15,452 nucleotides of DNA from Desulfobacterales bacterium (GTDB lineage Bacteria > Desulfobacterota > Desulfobacteria > Desulfobacterales > Desulfobacteraceae). The translations under genes and the position numbers were made by a program. Shown here piece by piece: positions 497-14,117 of this stretch. Each line of letters starts with the position of its first letter. The stretch's first letter is position 1. Location: NCBI GenBank assembly GCA_022361135.1, contig JAKSBM010000972.1, positions 1 through 15,452 of the forward strand, read 5' to 3'. The notes under the pieces are model-generated. The model saw only the letters and a program-made list of their open reading frames with translations, had not been told where the DNA came from and did not search any database.

Positions 497-1087
497 CTAG
501 GGTACGATAATGATATCGTCGGCCATCAATTGAATATCATGATTCAGTCGACCTTTGACTATATCATCATAATCAATTTTTATCATAACTTCTTTTTCCG
601 ATGTTCTGCGATAAAGGAGAATTTCATCCTTGGAAGCCCACTCGGTAAACCCCTTGGCCAAGGCAAAGGCCTGGATAACGGTCAGATTCTTAATCAGGGG
701 ATACTCTCCCACCTCCTGGACCTCACCCAAAACATAATATCTCTGGCTCACCGGATTGACCAGAGTGACGGTCACGGAAGGTGCTTCCACAAATTCACTC
801 AACTGGTCCTGGATCATGGTCTTCAGCTCCACCGTGGTATTCCCTTCGGCGGGCAGGTCATCCAACAAGGGAAAAGTGATCTTACCATCATTGCGCACCT
901 GGATACTCTCAAAGGACAGATCCTCTTCCTTCCAGGTAGTAATTTTCAAAATATCGCCAACACCGATTTTATAATCCTTTCCAACGGCCATGGGCTCCTG
1001 GGCAAAGAGTAAATCCCCCCGGGCAACACCGATGACCACCATGGCCACACCAAAGAATAAAACGATATTTTTGTGGAAATTAAACAT
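497..1087 (-). CDS. Periplasmic/outer-membrane polysaccharide export protein (Wza-like, Poly_export + SLBB)
   Basis: This 196-residue protein belongs to the Wza/polysaccharide export family, which forms or lines the outer-membrane exit for capsule or exopolysaccharide. Residues 1-30 are a signal peptide with a hydrophobic core and a likely cleavage after FAQ. No lipobox cysteine is visible, so unlike Wza it is probably not a lipoprotein. The Poly_export domain starts at the typical YKIGVGDILKITTW (39-52) and runs to about 110. A single SLBB-type domain follows (YYVLGEVQEVGEYP, 117-130), and the protein ends at DDIIIVP. It is about half the length of E. coli Wza and lacks a C-terminal membrane helix, like the short export proteins of XrtA/PEP-CTERM-type EPS loci. 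The start has a good GGAGCGGAG ribosome site directly preceded by a GC-rich hairpin. It lies downstream of the kinase and chain-length genes, which supports a role in one export machine. Confidence 0.92.
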   Translation of the reverse strand: MFNFHKNIVLFFGVAMVVIGVARGDLLFAQEPMAVGKDYKIGVGDILKITTWKEEDLSFESIQVRNDGKITFPLLDDLPAEGNTTVELKTMIQDQLSEFVEAPSVTVTLVNPVSQRYYVLGEVQEVGEYPLIKNLTVIQAFALAKGFTEWASKDEILLYRRTSEKEVMIKIDYDDIVKGRLNHDIQLMADDIIIVP

Positions 1088-1502
1088 AGCTCCGCTCCTT
1101 CAATCCCCGGGGGGGATTTGAATTAATGATAACATGTACGTTTCGCAATGAATCCCTTGGGGGCCATTGGATACGCATTGGAATTAGAGATCCCTTGAAT
1201 GAATTCTTGTACGATACCATGGAAATGTTATCGCAACTCCCTGTAAAGCGCACGGGGCGCCACCGTCATAACGGATTTAGCATTAATATTTCCAGTATAA
1301 AAGATATTTCTGATTCACCATGCCGACGAACTTTACACCAGAAACAACAGGGCAAGAACAGATTGCCGCCCTGCCCCGGGGGGATATAAAAACCGATTGG
1401 AGAAATCAAAGATTCTCAAAGAGGAATCTTCCCTTAATTGCTTTATGTGAAACCTGTCCCGTAGATGGCCCATGGGCTTCCATGTACCAGGGAATTTTTT
1501 TT
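1088..1502. other. 415-bp region without a gene inside the EPS operon
   Basis: The stretch between the kinase stop and the export-protein start is far longer than the other gaps of this same-strand cluster (18 and 57 bp). No frame on either strand combines a ribosome site with plausible protein composition. Visible structure is limited. There is an inverted repeat AAGATTC/GAATCTT at 1409-1415 and 1424-1430. A CAGGGC/GCCCTG pair lies at about 1349-1374. There is a TATACT box on the minus strand at 1299-1294 without a convincing -35 box. There is also the hairpin next to the export-gene ribosome site. It may carry a second promoter or a long leader for the export and barrel genes. I recognise no known riboswitch motif. 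Confidence 0.5.
1102..1118 (-). promoter_or_regulatory. GC-rich hairpin abutting the ribosome site of the export gene
   Basis: A perfect 7-bp inverted repeat, AATCCCC / GGGGATT with a 3-base loop, ends about 15 bases upstream of the export-protein ATG. It sits directly against the GAAGGAGCGG ribosome-binding region. In the mRNA this hairpin could affect ribosome access or stabilise a processed 5' end. No alternative base-pairing partner was found, so the regulatory role is inference. Confidence 0.35.
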
Positions 1503-2654
1503 CTAATTCTTTGGATAGCCGTATTGCTGATATCGATAGCTTGCAACGGGCTGTTTTGTTGAAAAATTCTTTATAACGCCAAGGATTTTATCCCTGCCAT
1601 AAATATCGATGATGTCCTGCACATCCTTTTTCCGGGTGATCCCCTGCCGGATAACAATGATGATGCCGTCCACAATTCGCGCAATGGCATTGGTTTCGGA
1701 GGTGATATTGGGGGGCGGTGCATCCACTATGATATACCGATCACTGTATCTGGATTTCAGTTCGGAAAGAAGCCGTCTCATCTGTTCTGAAGACAAAAGT
1801 TCGGAAGGATTGGGAGGAATTTGTCCCCCGGGCAAGACAGTCAACTTATCCAGAAAGGATTTAGACAAAAGGGGAGCCAGGGGAATTCCCGAGGACAAAT
1901 AATCACTCAGCCCTCGATTCCCATCCATTTCAAACAATTGATGAATGGTGGGCGCTCGCAAATCGCAATCCATCAAGAGTACATATTCGTCAATGCTGTT
2001 GGCAATGCTGACGGCAAGGTTGGCCGCCACAAAGGATTTACCCTCATTGGGGGAGGGGCTCGTAATCATGATGCTTCGGGGCGGCGTTCCCTTTTCCGGG
2101 AACAGAATATTATTCTTCAGGAGACGAAATTGTTCCGAAGCGATTGAATTGGGTTTTGTTGCCGTTATTAACCCCTTGGGAATTTGACCGCTCCGCACCT
2201 TGTTCAGCTTGGGAGCGCTGGATGCAAATCGTCTTTTCCGGGGATCCTTGGATACAAACTCCGGGTAGGGCTCCTCAACTTGCTGCCGCGCAGGTTCAGG
2301 CTTGGGCTGGGCAACCCTGGGCTGGGCAGGCTTGGGTTGGGCCGGCTGGGGCTGGGCAGGTCTGGGCGGCGCCTGTTTCGGCTGGGGGGGGGCGGGCCGT
2401 GTATTTTCAACCTTTGGTGCCACCGGAGCTTCGGGTTGCCGGGGGGGAGTTTCAACCTTTTTGCGTGGCGGGGCCGGCGGGGCCTCGGGAGGCGAATCAA
2501 AAGCGCCATCAAAGGCATTGGGAGCCGGCGGCGTTTCCTTGGCAACCGGAGGAGCGGATGGTTCTTCGGAAAAAGGATCCGGGGTCTTTTCCTGTTGTGC
2601 CGGACTTCCGGGTTTGCCCAAATCCTTATCCATGGCTTGTGAAAATTTACCCAT
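1503..2654 (-). CDS. Bacterial tyrosine kinase (BY-kinase, CpsD/Wzc-C type) with Pro-rich N-terminal extension
   Basis: This 383-residue cytoplasmic P-loop ATPase is of the BY-kinase class, which autophosphorylates on a C-terminal tyrosine cluster and, with its Wzz-type partner, controls polymer assembly and length. It shows a Walker A motif SPSPNEGKS (199-207, K206), Walker A' VLLMDCDLR (225-233, D229 and D231) and Walker B YIIVDAPP (307-314, D311). The cluster YRYQQYGY (373-380) near the C-terminus carries four tyrosines. The usual 'KPNSIASEQFRLLKNNI' lead-in lies at about 168-183. The first 130 residues are a Pro/Ala/Gln-rich, presumably disordered tail with repeated PAQP units. This is unusual for the family and could be a linker or docking tail. 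It has no membrane segment. The kinase begins 18 bp after the Wzz-type gene, so the two are separate polypeptides, as in CapA/CapB or CpsC/CpsD pairs. The start has GGGGAG about 10 nt upstream. Confidence 0.93.
   Translation of the reverse strand: MGKFSQAMDKDLGKPGSPAQQEKTPDPFSEEPSAPPVAKETPPAPNAFDGAFDSPPEAPPAPPRKKVETPPRQPEAPVAPKVENTRPAPPQPKQAPPRPAQPQPAQPKPAQPRVAQPKPEPARQQVEEPYPEFVSKDPRKRRFASSAPKLNKVRSGQIPKGLITATKPNSIASEQFRLLKNNILFPEKGTPPRSIMITSPSPNEGKSFVAANLAVSIANSIDEYVLLMDCDLRAPTIHQLFEMDGNRGLSDYLSSGIPLAPLLSKSFLDKLTVLPGGQIPPNPSELLSSEQMRRLLSELKSRYSDRYIIVDAPPPNITSETNAIARIVDGIIIVIRQGITRKKDVQDIIDIYGRDKILGVIKNFSTKQPVASYRYQQYGYPKN
2280..2399 (-). repeat. Degenerate in-frame repeat encoding PAQP-type units in the kinase tail
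   Basis: This stretch encodes about residues 86-125 of the kinase, with recurrent 15-bp-scale units reading P-x-P-A-Q (for example QPKPAQPRVAQPKPEPA). On the plus strand it appears as repeated 'ggctgggc' variants. Such repeats change copy number easily by slippage. The strong bias also creates long spurious Gly/Trp-rich frames on the opposite strand. Confidence 0.7.
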
Positions 2655-2672
2655 GGTTCATCTACTCCCCTG

Positions 2673-4301
2673 TTAAAAATTAAAATAAGTCTTGATAAGA
2701 TTAATGGTTCGATCCAGCCCCCTGAGGCTCAGGGTACCGAAACTTGCCAACAATATCGCAACATAGACGGAGCAACCGACAAAGGCAACCACAGTCAGAT
2801 ATTCTTTCCTTTCCTTTACCGAATCCTTTAACAGGGGGATGGTGGCCAATATGGTAAGGTCCAACTCATCCTCCAATTGCTCGTCCCTTCGAATAAAGGG
2901 GTCGAAAAATTCCAAAAGGAAAATAAAGCCAACGGCCAGACCAAGGCCCAGGAAAACAGCCAGGAAGAAAAACTTTTCCACATTGGGTGAAATGGGTTTT
3001 TCAGGCAGACGGGCATAATCAATGATCCGGAACTGTTCGCCCTTTTGTTTCTTTTCCATGTTCACGGAAAGCTCTGCTTCCAGCTTCCGATCCAGAAGGG
3101 AGTTATAAATATCCCGGATATTGGCATAATCACGCTTGAGGGACTGGAGTTCCAATTCACGCTTGGGAGTATCCTCCACCCGCCGTTGGTAGACCTTCAT
3201 CTTCCCTTCGATATCCCTGATATTATAACCAATCTTCTCAATGTCGTTCTTTATCAGGGCCTCGTTGGCCTGCAATTGCATCAAAGCCGGATTTATGGTT
3301 GCCCTGGGCTTGCTGACCGAAGCCTTGGCTTCTTCATTGGCAGACAGTCCCCGCTCCACCTCCACGGCCCGGGTTAATTTTTCAATACGCTTCTTGATTC
3401 GCTGGATATCGGGATGGCGGTCGGTGTAGCGGCTCAGGAGTTCATTGTACTCCTGCTCTGCCAAAAATAATTGCTCCTCACTCTCGGTCATGCCGAATGG
3501 CGGAGCAAACTGGCTGGCCTGGGTGGAGGAGCGGGTGCCGATGTTCTGTTGCTGCTTCACCGTTGCTATTTGTGAAGCAACCAAAGCCAGGGCGTTTTTC
3601 GCTTCCCTCAACTCGGTATTTTTATCGGCCAGCTGTTGCTGCAACCGGTCCAGGGTTCTCAGGTTACTCTCCAGTTCATCGGGCAGCCCCCCCAGGTATT
3701 TGGAACGGAAGGCCGATAATTTCAACTCATGCTCTTCCAACCGGCGGCGCGTCTTTTCCAACTCAGAATACAAAAATTCGCTGGTCCCAATGGCCTGGGC
3801 CTCCCTGACCTTCAGGTTCTCATCCATGAAAAAACTGGCCAGGGTATTGGTAATACGCATCACCTTCTGGGGCTCGCTGCCAGTGAATTGTATGGAAAAG
3901 GCTTCGGCGCCATGGCGGGCCCTTTCAATCTTCACCTGAACCCGCTTTCGCATATTGGCAATTTTTTCTTCCAGATAAAGATCCGACCGATCCGCATAAA
4001 GATTAAATTGTTCGATGATTTTTTCCAGATTGCTCCGACTTAAAATCTGTTGCGAAATGGTATTAATCCGTTGGTTGATACTGGAGGTCACAACGGATCG
4101 CACATAGGCGGTGGGTACGCTTTGTTGCTGTACAAGAATCAGGGTTGAAGCTTGGTAGGTTTTCTGCGCAGTAAGAACAAGTAGCAGTCCAATGGTGAGC
4201 GATATGCACAATGGTACAATAATGAACCATCGCCTACGCACAATGATATCAAAAATCTGTTCCGGCTTAACTTGAGCCGGCGAGTGTAATGAATCTGCCA
4301 T
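2673..4301 (-). CDS. Polysaccharide chain-length determinant (Wzz/GNVR family inner-membrane co-polymerase)
   Basis: This inner-membrane polysaccharide co-polymerase sets chain length and recruits the kinase encoded just downstream. With the start used here it has 542 residues. TM1 is WFIIVPLCISLTIGLLLVL (about 25-43), preceded by the family hallmark PEQIFDIIVRRR. A long periplasmic coiled coil follows (about 150-400, rich in Leu/Glu/Lys/Arg). The GNVR-type return segment ends in ARLPEKPISPN (about 430-440), then TM2 (about 443-465). An extra hydrophobic segment near 500-522 is present and is not universal in the family. The frame is open up to an ATG at 4361. I prefer the ATG at 4301 because it has an AGGT ribosome site 6 nt upstream. 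The -10-like TATAAT at 4372-4367 would also start transcription at or beyond the 4361 ATG. The 4361 start (562 residues) remains possible. No kinase domain is fused at the C-terminus. Confidence 0.9.
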   Translation of the reverse strand: MADSLHSPAQVKPEQIFDIIVRRRWFIIVPLCISLTIGLLLVLTAQKTYQASTLILVQQQSVPTAYVRSVVTSSINQRINTISQQILSRSNLEKIIEQFNLYADRSDLYLEEKIANMRKRVQVKIERARHGAEAFSIQFTGSEPQKVMRITNTLASFFMDENLKVREAQAIGTSEFLYSELEKTRRRLEEHELKLSAFRSKYLGGLPDELESNLRTLDRLQQQLADKNTELREAKNALALVASQIATVKQQQNIGTRSSTQASQFAPPFGMTESEEQLFLAEQEYNELLSRYTDRHPDIQRIKKRIEKLTRAVEVERGLSANEEAKASVSKPRATINPALMQLQANEALIKNDIEKIGYNIRDIEGKMKVYQRRVEDTPKRELELQSLKRDYANIRDIYNSLLDRKLEAELSVNMEKKQKGEQFRIIDYARLPEKPISPNVEKFFFLAVFLGLGLAVGFIFLLEFFDPFIRRDEQLEDELDLTILATIPLLKDSVKERKEYLTVVAFVGCSVYVAILLASFGTLSLRGLDRTINLIKTYFNF

Positions 4302-4366
4302 GTATTTACCTGGAATTTTTGATTTGAAGTATTGCATTTTCATGCTTTTAACTGACTCCATTTTTT

Positions 4367-8294: not shown

Positions 8295-8516
8295 TCACGG
8301 AAGATCCTTATAGGTCGGCGAACTGCTCCAGCGACTGATCCGCTCCCATCCGAACCGGTCCTCCCATCCCTTTCGCCGATCTTTCATCTTTCCCCGTCTC
8401 TCCACGCCGGGGTATCCCGGCCCCATGTCAAGGATGCGACGATCAATGGGGGATCTGCGATCAATGGGGGAACGTTTGATGTAAGCCGTTTTGGCCTGAC
8501 TTTTACCCTGGGTCAT
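8295..8516 (-). CDS. Small Arg-rich hypothetical protein with SPIDRR tandem repeat
   Basis: The frame encodes a 73-residue, very basic protein with 19 Arg or Lys. I believe it is real because GGGAGG lies about 8 nt before the ATG and a near-consensus promoter lies upstream. It carries two adjacent copies of SPIDRR (16-27), then PGVERRGKMKDRR and a Trp-rich tail GWEDRFGWERISRWSSS (50-66). Short proteins with ERR/DRR spacing and a W-rich end resemble small basic proteins I associate with Desulfobacterota, but I cannot name a family or function. It has no signal peptide, membrane segment or cysteine. The charge and aromatic tail would suit binding to nucleic acid, acidic polymer or membrane surface, which is speculation. 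It sits directly upstream of the epimerase and downstream of the CULT gene on the same strand. Confidence 0.72.
   Translation of the reverse strand: MTQGKSQAKTAYIKRSPIDRRSPIDRRILDMGPGYPGVERRGKMKDRRKGWEDRFGWERISRWSSSPTYKDLP
8440..8475 (-). repeat. Two tandem 18-bp units encoding SPIDRR-SPIDRR
   Basis: The plus-strand units 8440-8457 and 8458-8475 share their first 14 bases (cgatcaatggggga), then diverge at the last four. The divergence shows the duplication is not brand new, and the repeat keeps frame. Confidence 0.8.
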
Positions 8517-8651: not shown

Positions 8652-8679
8652 ATTATATAAGAATCGGAAGGGTTGTCAA
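8652..8679 (-). promoter_or_regulatory. Near-consensus sigma-70 promoter for the small Arg-rich gene (and possibly the epimerase)
   Basis: On the minus strand TTGACA (8679-8674) and TATAAT (8657-8652) are both perfect consensus hexamers separated by 16 bp. This is the best promoter in the window. It begins only 9 bases after the CULT stop codon and predicts a transcript start near 8645, giving a leader of about 130 nt before the ATG at 8516. Such strength suggests high expression unless repressed, and the dyad in the leader is a natural place for control. Confidence 0.75.
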
Positions 8680-8687
8680 AATTTTTT

Positions 8688-9059
8688 TTAACGGGTTACA
8701 AGGTTATCCATGATCAAGCCCCAGAAACCATAGGCTGTTTGGCTGTAAAACCATCCCAAATGGCCGCTGCACTGGGAACAGACGGCCACCTGCCACTCAT
8801 ACCCCTTGAACCACGAAAAATCGGAACTGGGCTCCGAAGCCGTTGTGGCCCCGGGGGCATTGGAAAAACAACCGATTTCAAACACTTGACCATGGGGGTT
8901 GGCAAAAACGTGGGTTCCCTGGTCATCCACCCGGATCCCATGGGCGGCATCGGCCACCTCTTTCCGGCAAAATCGGCATAGATATTTCAATTCATCCGGG
9001 CTTGCCTTTTCTTCGATACGGACTTCCTGATCCGTCTTCTCCTTGCAGACTATGGTCAT
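8688..9059 (-). CDS. Stand-alone CULT-domain protein (bacterial cereblon homologue)
   Basis: This 123-residue protein is a complete single CULT domain, the zinc-bound beta-tent fold that in eukaryotic cereblon (CRBN) binds thalidomide and C-terminal cyclic imides. Zinc ligands are C28/C31 (CRFC) and C94/C97 (CSQC). The aromatic cage is W83, W89 and W103, with spacings of 6 and 14, the same as W380/W386/W400 of human CRBN. Y105 stands at the F402 position. ANPHG (53-57) matches the VNPHG loop of CRBN, and SWFKGYEWQVAVC and HLGWFY match SWFPGYAWTVAQC and HIGWKF. F81 replaces CRBN H378; as I recall, the characterised Magnetospirillum protein has Phe there too. No DDB1-binding or Lon-like part is present, so it is not a ubiquitin-ligase receptor. 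The natural bacterial ligand is unknown. The ATG overlaps the stop of the upstream membrane protein (ATGA), with GGGAG 7 nt before it, so the two are translationally coupled. Confidence 0.93.
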   Translation of the reverse strand: MTIVCKEKTDQEVRIEEKASPDELKYLCRFCRKEVADAAHGIRVDDQGTHVFANPHGQVFEIGCFSNAPGATTASEPSSDFSWFKGYEWQVAVCSQCSGHLGWFYSQTAYGFWGLIMDNLVTR

Positions 9060-9778
9060 TTGACGCTCCCCTCCCGGTCAAGTATGAACAAGGTTGCCCC
9101 CACCGGTGCATAGGAAAGAAATAGAATATTGAGCCAGGGAATCAAAAACAACAAACCAAATCCCAGGTGAAATCCCAGATTTTGTTTTAGAAATCCCAGC
9201 CGTTCACGAAAGGGAATCATCCGCCTGGCATATATGAGATCCGTATGATCCCAGGCCAGGAACAGGGCTGCTGCCATGGAAGAGACCACAATGAACACGG
9301 GTCCAAGGGGGGTTAACAACCCCACAAGTGCGATAAAAAGTGAAATAAAAAGGGGGATTATGGCCCGGGGGATTTCCTGTTTCATGAGGTAAATGAAAAG
9401 GCCGATCCAGGATTCGTCGCCGGCCCCCTTCTCCATTCCCACATGGATTCGTTCGGTGATCCTGGACATATAATCCATGATAAAAACACAGAAAAAGATC
9501 TGGGCCACGATATAGGACATCAACATGGCCACCGCGGTGAGGATCACCACCAGGAACCAGGAAACGATATTCCAAACGTAGACCAGCCACCCGCCGTCGG
9601 GCATGGTCCAAATTAAATTCAAGATTTCATTGTGCCAAACCAGGACAAGGCCGGACATGAACAAAAAAACGGCCATAATAATCACAAACCGCAAAAGGCC
9701 AAGCAGGAGCAATGAAGGAGTTTTAAGAGCCAGAAAAAGTCCTTTGAAATTATATTTAATTCCATTTATAAAAGCCAT
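9056..9778 (-). CDS. EI24/CysZ-like integral membrane protein
   Basis: This polytopic inner-membrane protein has about 240 residues and four or more long hydrophobic stretches, near 23-48, 65-100, 140-176 and 204-232. The block FLAWDHTDLIYARRM...F (about 173-190) and the following LGFGLLFLIPWLNILFLSYAPVGATLF match the EI24 (PF07264) pattern also found in CysZ, where it supports sulfate uptake for cysteine synthesis. Generic EI24 proteins have no settled function, so sulfate transport should not be assumed, and no cysteine-biosynthesis gene lies nearby. The frame opens further upstream at 9802. I chose the ATG at 9778 because it has AAGG about 8 nt upstream, the 9802 ATG has none, and MAFINGIKYNFKG is a typical EI24 N-terminus. 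Its stop overlaps the CULT start in ATGA, implying joint expression. Confidence 0.85.
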   Translation of the reverse strand: MAFINGIKYNFKGLFLALKTPSLLLLGLLRFVIIMAVFLFMSGLVLVWHNEILNLIWTMPDGGWLVYVWNIVSWFLVVILTAVAMLMSYIVAQIFFCVFIMDYMSRITERIHVGMEKGAGDESWIGLFIYLMKQEIPRAIIPLFISLFIALVGLLTPLGPVFIVVSSMAAALFLAWDHTDLIYARRMIPFRERLGFLKQNLGFHLGFGLLFLIPWLNILFLSYAPVGATLFILDREGSVK

Positions 9779-9800
9779 TGATTTACCTTGATTGATGGTC

Positions 9801-9845
9801 ATTATTTTTATAGATCACGACTCTGGGTCGTACTATAAAAATAAT
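9801..9845. promoter_or_regulatory. 45-bp near-perfect dyad between the divergent membrane-protein and aminotransferase genes
   Basis: The outer arms ATTATTTTTATAG (9801-9813) and CTATAAAAATAAT (9833-9845) are perfect 13-bp inverted repeats. Inside them ACGAC (9817-9821) and GTCGT (9827-9831) form a second perfect pair around TCTGG. The centre lies about 45 bases from the start at 9778 and 52 bases from that at 9875, so it is almost exactly in the middle of the divergent region. The arms contain TATAAA/TATAAT-like hexamers facing both ways. It fits a shared operator or symmetric bidirectional promoter. A terminator role is less likely because both genes start, rather than end, here. Confidence 0.65.
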
Positions 9846-10733: not shown

Positions 10734-12329
10734 CTATCCCGCCCGGGGAATACATCCTATCAAACAGGTATTTTCCCGGGCAAATTCTTTATAGGCAACA
10801 CCGGAACGGGGGGTAATAAAATTATCCCCCAATTGAAATCGAGTCTTAAATCCCTCCAAAAAATCCAGGGACGCGACATGGGGCGGAGCACTGGAAAAAT
10901 CTGTTACCCGGAACACCCTTTCCAACAACGGCGTCTGGGAAGAAATTTCAGCGGATCGAAGTTTATCCAGCAACCGTTCTTCCACATGGATGGCTCCGGG
11001 TTTACCGGTGTGTTCCAATCGGGATGCCGTATTCACGGCCGCACCAATGGCCGTGATCACCCGACGGCTCCGACTTCCCAACGGGCCGATGGTGGCATTT
11101 CCATAATCCATCCCCGCCCGAAAATTCATCTCAATCCCGTATTTTTCCAATAATCCTTTCACAAGCCCCTGGGGATCTGAAGCATGGCACCCCTGCTTCA
11201 ATTGGTTCACCTGGGAAAAAAAACTCCCCAGGGCCATGGTCATGATCATCAACCGGTCCTTGATACCCGGAGGATTGGGATAGGCATCGAGGGGATCAAA
11301 CACGGAGACATGTTCGAGGAAGACCGAATCTCCAATGAAATTATCCAGCCGACACCCGTGGGTGAAGGCAATGTCTGCGGTAATTTCGTGGCAGTGTTTA
11401 AGGACGAAAAAATAATCCCTGGGGGCCATGGTTCCAAGGACCTTCACCGATCCAACCATATCGATGAAGGCATAGACCCCGTCATCAATGCTGATGGGCT
11501 CCATGTGAACCTGATCCAGCGTCACCCCTCCCAGGGCCCTGAGGTAGCGTTTCTGTTCATTTAATTCTTCGGCCTTGGCATTGACCCGGTCCCAGGCCCT
11601 GCGCAGTTTCAATTCCTTTCGCTGGATGATCCGGGAAGCCGAAGTGCCCCTGGCCCGGCCCAGGGAAATGATGGATGCCATTTCAACGGCTTCAATCAAA
11701 AGATCCAATCGCCGTTTCAATTCATCCAGCTGCCCCCCCTCCCCCAGGGCCAGAAGGGAGGGGCAGATGGTGTTGAAAACAATGGCCCCGTAGTCCGGGA
11801 TATAGGCTGAAAGAAAATTTCTGGCCTTAAACCATTGAACAATTCCCATGTTCACCTGGATATCCTCAAGGGCACCAAACCGGTTTCCATCATAGGAAAA
11901 GGAGGGAAATTTCTCCTGGTTCCCAAGGGGATCGATGGGATGGAGAATGATAATCTTAACCCCGCGGCGATAATAGTCCCTGTGATTGCGAAGCACATGG
12001 GCAATAACACCCGGTGTCTCACGGGATTCCCCCCTGGCTCCCTGGCCATACAGGGGGATGGGGGAAAGGGATTTTCGACGGACCAGCCCAGGCCCGAAGT
12101 ATCGAATAAAAACACCCCGGATCCCTCGGCCATCTGCCAGGTGGAAAATTCCCCGATCCCAATGGGAAGGACGCACATACCGTCTGCCGGTGGCGTCGGA
12201 ACCATAAACGACACCGGCCTGTTCAGCCTTCAATAATCTCCGGCTGAATCGAAGCAGGCAGGCCATGACGTTTTTGGATCGTTTGGCCTGCCGCTTAAAG
12301 ACGTGTAGGTCATTCCAATCGGGTTTCAT
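10734..12329 (-). CDS. Class III nucleotidyl cyclase-like protein with long N-terminal region and altered substrate residues
   Basis: The protein has 531 residues. The C-terminal part (about 280-460) is a class III adenylate/guanylate cyclase homology domain. Both metal-binding aspartates are present: D290 in FIDMVGS and D334 in FIGDSV. So are the transition-state pair N433 and R437 in AVNTASRLE. The positions that normally select adenine differ: the Lys of KFIGD is N330, and the Asp of DFTVIGD is V424 in VITAIG. The following IGD is IGA. Catalysis is thus possible, but the product (cAMP, cGMP or other) cannot be called. Residues 1-230 match no sensor domain I recognise. A helical segment at about 232-265 is probably the coiled-coil signalling linker. 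No membrane segment is clear. The start lies 20 bases inside the end of the fatty-acid synthase gene without its own ribosome site, so translational coupling is likely. Confidence 0.85.
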   Translation of the reverse strand: MKPDWNDLHVFKRQAKRSKNVMACLLRFSRRLLKAEQAGVVYGSDATGRRYVRPSHWDRGIFHLADGRGIRGVFIRYFGPGLVRRKSLSPIPLYGQGARGESRETPGVIAHVLRNHRDYYRRGVKIIILHPIDPLGNQEKFPSFSYDGNRFGALEDIQVNMGIVQWFKARNFLSAYIPDYGAIVFNTICPSLLALGEGGQLDELKRRLDLLIEAVEMASIISLGRARGTSASRIIQRKELKLRRAWDRVNAKAEELNEQKRYLRALGGVTLDQVHMEPISIDDGVYAFIDMVGSVKVLGTMAPRDYFFVLKHCHEITADIAFTHGCRLDNFIGDSVFLEHVSVFDPLDAYPNPPGIKDRLMIMTMALGSFFSQVNQLKQGCHASDPQGLVKGLLEKYGIEMNFRAGMDYGNATIGPLGSRSRRVITAIGAAVNTASRLEHTGKPGAIHVEERLLDKLRSAEISSQTPLLERVFRVTDFSSAPPHVASLDFLEGFKTRFQLGDNFITPRSGVAYKEFARENTCLIGCIPRAG

Positions 12330-13560
12330 TTTTTGAAAAAAGGCTTAAAAAATACCTGTTTTCCCCTCCGCATATGGGTGGTTTATAAAATAAATTTTGA
12401 TACAGGGAAATCTCCCCTTGCTGGAACGAGACCATGGAACCGATGAAAAAGACATGGTAGATCCGATATACCGATTCCGAAACAATTTTCAAAAGGCGAT
12501 CCCGGTGATGCTCCATCCGTGCAATCCAGTCCTCCAGGGTGCGAACATAATGGAGGCGAAAATTCTCCGCATTTAACAGTTCAAACCCGGACCCGCTGGC
12601 CATATCCACCAAATCCTGCTGGGGAAGAAGCTCGCCGCCGGGGAACATATAGGTGTCCAGAAAAGCATTTTTCAACCGCTTTTTCCGCCGCACATTGGTG
12701 GTGATGGTATGTTGGAGAAACAAGCCTTCGGGTTTGAGTGCATCCAATACCTTTCCATAGAAAATTTTCATATTGGACCGTCCCACATGTTCGGACATGC
12801 CAATGCAGGAAATCTTGTCAAAACATTGGCCCTCCAGATCCCTGTAATTCATGATCCGGATATCGATTTGACTGGAAAGTCCCTGGGATTCAATCCAATC
12901 TTCGGCATAGGCTTTTTGTTCCCGGCTCAGGGTGATCCCGGTCACCCGGACCCTGTAATGCTTAGCCGCGTAAACGGCAAAATTTCCCCAGCCACATCCG
13001 ATGTCCAAAAGATGTTCCCCCGGTTGCAGCCTTAGCTTACGGCAGATGATATCCATTTTTTCATTTTGTGCGTCGGACATGGATGCATCCGCAGACGGAT
13101 AATAGCCACAGGTGTATCCCATGGTTTCCCCCAAAAAAATTCGGTAGAAACTGCTGGGGGCATCATAATGATATTCGATATTTTCTTTTTCCTTTTCCCG
13201 CTTTGAGGCCAGGGCCGCCCCCACACGCTCCACCAATCGTTTGGGTTGATCGGTACTCAAAATCTTATCCCAAACCTGTTCATAGAGCTCCCGAATGCTG
13301 CCGGCCACATCAAAATAGCCTTTGACATAGGCCTCCCCAAGGGAAAAGGCATCGGGGGACATCAGGGCTTTGAAAAATTTTTTATCCCGGATCAGAATAC
13401 GGTACCGGATGTCGCCCAACCCGGTTGAATAGGAACGACCATCTGGAGCAACCACTTCCAGTGGAATCATTGCATCCTTGAGGATCTGGACAAATTTATT
13501 GAGGAAAAGACGCTGATAGGATTCAGAGAAACCGGACAGAGAAGGAAAACGAGACCACAT
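12310..13560 (-). CDS. Cyclopropane-fatty-acid synthase family SAM-dependent methyltransferase
   Basis: This 416-residue enzyme of the CFA/mycolic-acid cyclopropane synthase family adds a methylene or methyl group from S-adenosylmethionine to unsaturated acyl chains of membrane phospholipids. Landmarks are YHYDAPSSFYRIFLG (130-144) with YTCGYY (149-154, C151 in the active-site position), the SAM loop LLDIGCGWGNFAVYAAKHY (184-202), GITLSREQKAYAE, GMSEHVGRSNM (E257), FLQHTI (H284) and HYVRTLEDW (337-345). The N-terminal part shows the usual CFA lead-in (GEAYVKGYFDVAGSIRELYE). The frame is open to an ATG at 13611. I use 13560 because AAAGGAGATGTT places a strong ribosome site just before it. Other modifications, such as methyl branching, are possible within the family. 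It overlaps the cyclase-like gene by 20 bases, so membrane-lipid change and the cyclase are co-expressed. Confidence 0.93.
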   Translation of the reverse strand: MWSRFPSLSGFSESYQRLFLNKFVQILKDAMIPLEVVAPDGRSYSTGLGDIRYRILIRDKKFFKALMSPDAFSLGEAYVKGYFDVAGSIRELYEQVWDKILSTDQPKRLVERVGAALASKREKEKENIEYHYDAPSSFYRIFLGETMGYTCGYYPSADASMSDAQNEKMDIICRKLRLQPGEHLLDIGCGWGNFAVYAAKHYRVRVTGITLSREQKAYAEDWIESQGLSSQIDIRIMNYRDLEGQCFDKISCIGMSEHVGRSNMKIFYGKVLDALKPEGLFLQHTITTNVRRKKRLKNAFLDTYMFPGGELLPQQDLVDMASGSGFELLNAENFRLHYVRTLEDWIARMEHHRDRLLKIVSESVYRIYHVFFIGSMVSFQQGEISLYQNLFYKPPICGGENRYFLSLFSKNETRLE

Positions 13561-14117
13561 AACATCTCCTTTGAAATTCAATGGAATTGGAAATTTGTGA
13601 CACCATTTCAACCTAGTGCGGACATTATCGAATTAGGGATAAAATTTAAAGACTTATCTATAAAAAATAAGATCCACATAAATCCTTGGGCATGACGCCG
13701 GTATAAAAATGGCAGACAACCGGAATTTTCACACCCCTAAATGGACCATTTGTGGATGGAAAATCGGGGTCGAAAGGAACGATCAACCCGCATACGGCGA
13801 TGTGGAAGGAAACATGCCCACCATAGCCGTTCTCAAAAATATGTTCCGAAACCATGGACTATCTTCACGATGGTTTAAACCCCTTCCAACAGGGTTGACC
13901 ATCGAATTTGCCAATCACGCCCGGAGGATCAGGTGGTAGCGGAATCTTCCTCCCCCCGTCATCGCCGGGTGGGGAGAAAAACCTTCCAATCAAATGGAAA
14001 AAGGCCCATTCAATGGGAACGTTATTTTGAGAATCACTATAAAAGAAAAATACGGCAGGTTCTACACCGGGTGTGGAAATCCCCATGCAAAACCCTTGTG
14101 GAATGCAGCCATGGCAA
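13561..14117. other. 557-bp interval between the CFA synthase and the ABC transporter genes
   Basis: No confidently supported gene lies here. The part next to the CFA gene (about 13612-13680) is A/T-rich and probably holds its promoter: GATAAT occurs on the minus strand near 13625-13630, without a good -35 box. CTTAT/ATAAG flank an A/T centre around 13653-13671. A 13-base palindrome CCCATTCAATGGG lies at 14005-14017. No convincing terminator follows the substrate-binding gene. One plus-strand frame through this interval looks coding and is listed separately. Confidence 0.5.

Follow-up and report, generated by a model that had tools for sequence, protein, structure and literature searches.

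A single-domain cereblon-like CULT protein of Desulfobacterota and its EI24/CysZ-type gene neighbour

The minus-strand ORF at positions 8688–9059 of the window (the whole 15,452-nucleotide stretch of Desulfobacterales DNA analysed here) encodes a CULT (cereblon-like) protein of 123 residues, as judged by ORF reading, phmmer, AlphaFold2 and Foldseek. Going by its sequence and predicted fold, the product is a complete single-domain CULT protein. A 2015 study described such proteins from bacteria, chiefly deltaproteobacteria (PMC4287342), and the window's protein is a further member of this group. The bacterial CULT protein itself being known, what is added here is the pairing of its gene with an EI24/CysZ-type membrane protein gene and an N-terminal motif, on both of which the preliminary description of this DNA was silent.

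Sequence and predicted fold of the CULT protein

The ORF opens with an ATG at 9059, and the last base of its stop codon lies at 8688. Six nucleotides before the ATG, the purine-rich stretch GGGAGGGGAG (9066–9075, minus strand) resembles a ribosome-binding site and may act as one; it sits within the 3' end of the upstream EI24/CysZ-family gene. Several elements, all encoded on the minus strand, can be read directly in the translation: two CxxC pairs, C28-x2-C31 (8967–8978) and C94-x2-C97 (8769–8780), which would form a putative zinc site; the cage tryptophans W83 (codon 8811–8813), W89 (+6; 8793–8795) and W103 (+14; 8751–8753); Y105 at the fourth aromatic position (8745–8747); and A53-N54-P55-H56-G57 (8889–8903), placed at the inserted hairpin following the motif assignment in PMC4287342. 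The preliminary description had listed the spacing W83-N6-W89-N14-W103, Y105, ANPHG and both CxxC pairs, and each of them is present in the ORF. Apart from a Yippee-Mis18 match, no further Pfam domain was found, i.e., the CULT domain stands alone, as in the bacterial group.

Against the PDB, phmmer retrieved 6r0q (E 1.9e-22) and 4v2y (2.5e-22), both Magnetospirillum gryphiswaldense 'cereblon isoform 4' (MsCI4), and chains named 'Protein cereblon' at 8.4e-13 to 1.1e-10, a resemblance far above chance. In these comparisons W83, W89 and W103 fall on the cage tryptophans of MsCI4 with conserved spacing, and NPHG 54–57 aligns with NPHG or NPAG of the Magnetospirillum chains. The AlphaFold2 model, built from a 23-row alignment, reached a pLDDT of 88.6 and a pTM of 0.79, with values of 66 and 72 for the first two ten-residue blocks. 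The best 34 Foldseek matches of this model were all Magnetospirillum chains, beginning with 8rdp_A (E 4.8e-10, TM by target 0.86, rmsd 1.9), and CRBN-midi (8rqc_A) followed at rank 35 with an rmsd of 1.6 across 107 columns. TM by target against MsCI4 structures ranged from 0.72 to 0.90 among the matches listed, which points to a beta-tent fold. Sequence and predicted fold, together with the conservation described below, bear out the claim that the CULT protein is complete, consists of one domain and has its cage intact; a structure-prediction check, proposed along with this claim, ranked MsCI4 first and then CRBN.

The protein therefore shares with the Magnetospirillum CULT (PDB 4v2y, 6r0q) a single domain, two CxxC pairs, a three-Trp cage, the NP hairpin and a predicted beta-tent fold, with 36–40% of residues identical across ~100 columns of the listed structure alignments; the EI24/CysZ-type pairing and the N-terminal hydrophobic-hydrophobic-C-K motif of the window's protein may be further differences. 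With the thalidomide-binding domain of human cereblon it has the predicted fold and the cage in common, whereas the LON domain and the DDB1-binding part of human cereblon are both missing from the 123-residue ORF. To our knowledge, bacteria lack a cullin-ubiquitin system.

Yippee/Mis18 proteins are zinc beta-tent relatives of CULT (PMC4287342), and a Yippee/Mis18-type or MsrB-type protein resembling cereblon in fold only was considered. The sole Pfam match was indeed Yippee-Mis18 (PF03226, E 1.2e-5), but the score of 25.8 bits narrowly missed the gathering cut-off of 26.6; NCBIfam returned no match at E <= 1e-3, although two of the 33 proteins retrieved in a database search carry the NCBI name 'cereblon family protein'. 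Since cereblon came top in both the sequence and the fold searches and the full Trp cage is present, we regard such a protein as highly improbable. A decayed or spurious ORF is more improbable still, to the point of being negligible. The gene is short and is overlapped by a 102-residue plus-strand ORF, and the plus-strand frame across it contains one stop; against this, the ORF is intact, its start is coupled to the upstream gene, its key residues are invariant among relatives, and the database search returned 32 other homologous proteins.

Conservation and distribution

The comparison set comprised 121 CULT sequences, after three of the 124 found had been dropped for being under 85 residues. 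It consists of 61 sequences from the family to which the Desulfobacula MAG belongs (hereafter the family; window included), 39 from other Desulfobacterota, 20 from Pseudomonadota and one from Verrucomicrobiota; 39 of 41 'other Desulfobacterota' sequences were used, one (L099) being the additional CULT gene of family genome G002, and 20 of 21 from Pseudomonadota. C28, C31, C94, C97, N54, W83, W89, W103 and G102 are identical in 121/121 sequences, and G57 and F112 likewise have zero entropy, against a median column entropy of 2.46 bits. P55 is Pro in 118/119, and position 105 is always aromatic (F in 89, Y in 32). The His of ANPHG (H56) is not shared by all, this position being His in 66/121 and Ala in 24/121. 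The sequences, gathered with a CULT profile, are in part related to one another, with a few paralogues among them, and thus represent fewer independent lineages; gathering by profile does not, however, impose invariance on just these residues. The unvarying cage tryptophans, N54 and zinc cysteines thus argue for strong selection on the pocket and the zinc site, and this sequence comparison gives good support to the proposal, made at the outset, that ligand binding is under selection.

Of 395 genomes sampled from the phylum Desulfobacterota, 39 had a CULT match (E <= 1e-6), as had 21 of 398 sampled Pseudomonadota, the best ten candidates per genome having been scored in both samples; at the same threshold a match was found in 65 of the 86 genomes of the family. 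The earlier characterization of CULT as scattered consequently holds at the phylum level but not within the family, where the gene is common. Three genomes (G002, G423 and G466) carry two CULT genes each, and the second copy of G002 (L011, L099) has a lower score and is not paired with EI24. A mobile-element origin was also considered and rejected: there was no match in 50,697 phage or 72,556 plasmid records, and no confirmed IMG/VR relative.

The EI24/CysZ-type neighbour

Directly upstream of CULT on the minus strand, positions 9056–9802 encode a 248-residue EI24/CysZ-family membrane protein (PF07264, 1e-19), whose stop codon overlaps the CULT start in ATGA. The protein is 52–64% identical to 19 members from the family, and the gene order of the window is shared with family loci, which suggests that the window belongs to this family or to one close to it. 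According to genome coordinates, 63 of the 68 family CULT genes have an EI24-type gene upstream on the same strand and contig. Measured between profile matches, the distance is within 250 bp in 59 of these, 310 bp in one and about 1.1 to 1.5 kb in three. The five unpaired genes are the second copy of G002, those of G447 and G449, which by eye have a different gene upstream, and those of G403 and G454, whose EI24-type genes lie on contigs other than that of CULT. In each of the 65 CULT-positive family genomes there is an EI24-type gene, whole or fragmentary, in G435 and G449 only as a short piece at a contig end. Among the 86 family genomes, nine have EI24 without CULT and twelve have neither; Fisher's test for co-occurrence gives p 1.9e-9, which we do not count as evidence because of the kinship among the genomes, many of which are incomplete.

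The order of genes was read in 43 family loci (the window, L001 and L002, both from Desulfobacula, and L109–L148). An EI24-type gene lies nearby in 39 of them, in 36 as the directly upstream neighbour of CULT; next in frequency are a class-IV aminotransferase (27), an epimerase (20), PepN (18) and an adenylate-cyclase-like gene (17), and contig ends shorten many loci, which lowers the counts of more distant neighbours. In one locus, the place of EI24, 23 bp upstream of CULT, is taken by a gene (L148:48-2450) that looks by eye to be of the penicillin-acylase type.

Elsewhere in the window, three further observations were made on the minus strand. There is a small ORF with DRR repeats (8295–8516), ending RWSSSPTYKDLP; judged by eye, similar ORFs lie downstream of CULT in 10 of the 42 other family loci. 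Between the window's copy and the CULT stop lies a 12-of-12 sigma-70-like promoter, TTGACA-16-TATAAT (8652–8679), one of five promoter-like sites found where 2.8 were expected. At 497–4361, three ORFs resemble, by eye, polysaccharide export and chain-length/tyrosine-kinase genes. At 10734–13611, an adenylate-cyclase-like protein (PF00211, 1e-6), the one recurring in the family, adjoins a cyclopropane-fatty-acid-synthase-type gene (PF02353, 2.2e-85).

Outside the family, the pair was found in 0 of 42 loci by BLAST clusters within eight genes (L003–L005 and L069–L108 minus L099, some of them short, L107 and L108 from one genome), and it cannot therefore account for CULT generally. The EI24 subfamily was detected at 1e-6 in 26 of the 395 phylum-sample genomes, seven best candidates per genome having been scored, 16 of them strong (E < 1e-80). 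Of these 16, only G002, G137 and G140 have CULT, and in G137 and G140 the two genes lie apart. The occurrence of CULT without nearby EI24 outside the family, together with that of EI24 without CULT, indicates that neither needs the other in general. The EI24-only family loci point the same way: eight of the nine were read, and in six (L191–L196) the EI24 stop overlaps the start of an epimerase-like gene by 4 nt with CULT absent between them, other sequence following EI24 in the remaining two (L189 and L190), so the membrane protein can do without CULT. L191–L196 are natural CULT-free genomes for comparison.

No shared partner emerged among the neighbours scanned outside the family. In the Desulfobacterota loci, 67 of 68 same-strand neighbours were scanned (one 1447-residue protein was left out), and no Pfam family occurred in more than three; haem-synthesis and alpha/beta-hydrolase families were the commonest. 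In 20 Pseudomonadota loci, 123 of 127 neighbours were scanned, three of the four left out lying at contig ends and one being very long, with response regulators (8), VWA (6), TPR (5), rhodanese (4) and others. Tallies covered the 25 commonest of 76 Pfam families in the Desulfobacterota outside loci and of 140 in Pseudomonadota, and no recurrent ligand-related neighbour was seen among these. One Pseudomonadota locus, noticed beforehand, has a canonical CysZ-type gene downstream of CULT (L184:9717-10475, PF07264 9.8e-49); further PF07264 members may stand among the rarer families outside the tally, and a single such neighbour in 20 loci is not evidence of a general link.

The membrane protein may simply be a bystander. 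CULT, with the same pocket, would then have been inserted behind an older EI24-type gene in the family ancestor and would ride its transcript, and the soluble binder, working alone, would sequester or sense damaged, imide-ended peptides or a pyrimidine-like metabolite, the neighbour being functionally unrelated. The absence of a CULT match from 13 of the 16 strong-EI24 phylum genomes fits this account, as do the six loci without CULT directly behind EI24 and the varying neighbours of CULT outside the family, and operon membership may last through descent alone. It fits less well with a pair kept in 63/68 cases, mostly at very short spacing while the flanking genes change, nor does any family genome have CULT without the EI24-type gene or a fragment. 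We consider this account a real contender whose chances lie somewhat below even. A functional EI24–CULT link within the family is accordingly presented as a lead and not as a result. In the literature searched by title and abstract start, with subscription papers mostly outside coverage, nothing was found on gene neighbourhoods of bacterial CULT genes, and the word 'operon' is absent from the main text of PMC4287342.

The neighbour itself passes the gathering cut-off of PF07264 (71.9 bits against 32), and a profile of its subfamily gives a weak match to CysZ 6d79 (E 1.8e-4), and these are the traits it shares with the CysZ/EI24 family. CysZ has been described as a sulfate permease in which GLR(R) forms the sulfate-binding motif (PMC5967866), and CysZ-type transporters have been proposed for sulfate reducers in a study that searched the TSUP family and not PF07264 (PMC5840216). 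The neighbour differs in that, in the weak 6d79 alignment, CysZ GLRL stands opposite k-l-l-l of the profile, the Arg is missing at the aligned place, and GLR(R) was not found there in the subfamily. Judging from sequence, we would not call the product of 9056–9802 a sulfate transporter. The literature searched contained no paper joining CysZ, EI24 and sulfate, and what it held on EI24 with E3 ligases was eukaryotic work only.

N-terminal motif, ligand and possible mechanism

The window's protein begins with MTIVCK (residues 1–6; 9042–9059, minus strand), which comparison within the family identifies as a motif. A triplet of a hydrophobic residue (or T/D), Cys or Ala, and Lys or Arg occurs in 48 of the 61 CULT proteins of the family, 23–26 residues ahead of the first zinc Cys (at 24 in 34 proteins, 25 in 10, 23 in the window). 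The central residue is Cys in 44 and Ala in four, usually with a second V/L/I ahead, and in 38 of the 48 a Met stands four residues ahead of the motif Cys. Entropy is 0.41 bits at the Cys and 0.54 at the K/R position, compared with 2.3–3.6 in the following linker. Both Cys codons are in use (TGC 27, TGT 17), which indicates a protein-level feature. A looser pattern matched 51 of 61 family proteins against a shuffled mean of 7.2 and maximum of 14, and stayed within the shuffled range outside the family (9/40, mean 5.1, maximum 11; 7/21, mean 3.2, maximum 10); the patterns were picked after viewing the sequences, which are related, shuffles leave kinship in place, and true starts are uncertain. 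A residue-class scan outside the family gave three hydrophobic residues followed by a basic one in 17/53 (shuffled mean 4.2, maximum 8) and hydrophobic-hydrophobic-basic-x-Pro in 11/53 (mean 1.9, maximum 5), both among the twelve most enriched of many patterns tried, after 6 of 59 sequences had been dropped as redundant. The segment probably makes contact with a partner or with the CULT domain itself, and its near-fixed spacing in the family may indicate packing on the domain rather than reaching a partner. No description of this motif was found in the literature searched by title and abstract start.

As to the ligand, MsCI4 binds thalidomide and uridine at low micromolar concentrations, and the work on it implies that roughly one third of the domain becomes folded only upon ligand binding; the biological context of uridine binding was left unsettled by the authors (PMC4449219). 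In eukaryotes, the cereblon cage reads C-terminal cyclic imides, and PCMT has been reported as a maker of such ends (PMC13001092). PCMT was considered as a discriminating CULT partner and rejected: present in 60 of the 65 family genomes that have CULT and in 18 of the 21 that lack it, it is near-universal either way and carries no signal. Heim and colleagues (2022) reportedly presented such cyclic imides as cereblon degrons, using a bacterial protein. An imide-end ligand is a reasonable idea, partly in print already, and the present results do not favour imide ends over uracil-like rings.

Starting from the observed identity, predicted fold, cage conservation, gene pairing and N-terminal motif conservation, our explanation as a whole is that of an imide-type binder coupled with an EI24/CysZ-type membrane protein, and we hold it tentatively, at barely less than an even chance. 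The CULT protein would be cytosolic, a beta-tent pinned by zinc, whose three-Trp cage would bind a small group resembling a cyclic imide, the leading candidates being a peptide C-terminal aspartimide or glutarimide or a uracil/uridine-like ring. Its gene would be the second of a two-gene unit, transcribed together with that of the CysZ/EI24-type protein. Ligand binding may order the CULT domain, and the liganded protein would then act on a partner, for which the membrane protein is the first candidate; contact with it, and any regulation exerted through it, would follow from this. It is plausible that ligand binding is relayed in this manner to the membrane or to another partner. A bolder version would make bacterial CULT proteins ubiquitin-free, cereblon-like adaptors whose cage reads the cyclic-imide C-termini of damaged proteins, while an N-terminal motif, in the family the one with Cys and in other groups perhaps the enriched hydrophobic triplet with Arg/Lys, docks the liganded protein on a partner, in the family the EI24/CysZ-type protein or a protease; this we think unlikely.

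A conserved partner together with a conserved motif allows specific deletion and interaction tests of the use that bacteria make of a cereblon-type pocket. The family has many members, some of which keep the partner without CULT, which makes the role of CULT testable. The adjacency of the EI24/CysZ-type gene may in this way serve as a testable clue to the role of CULT in bacteria.
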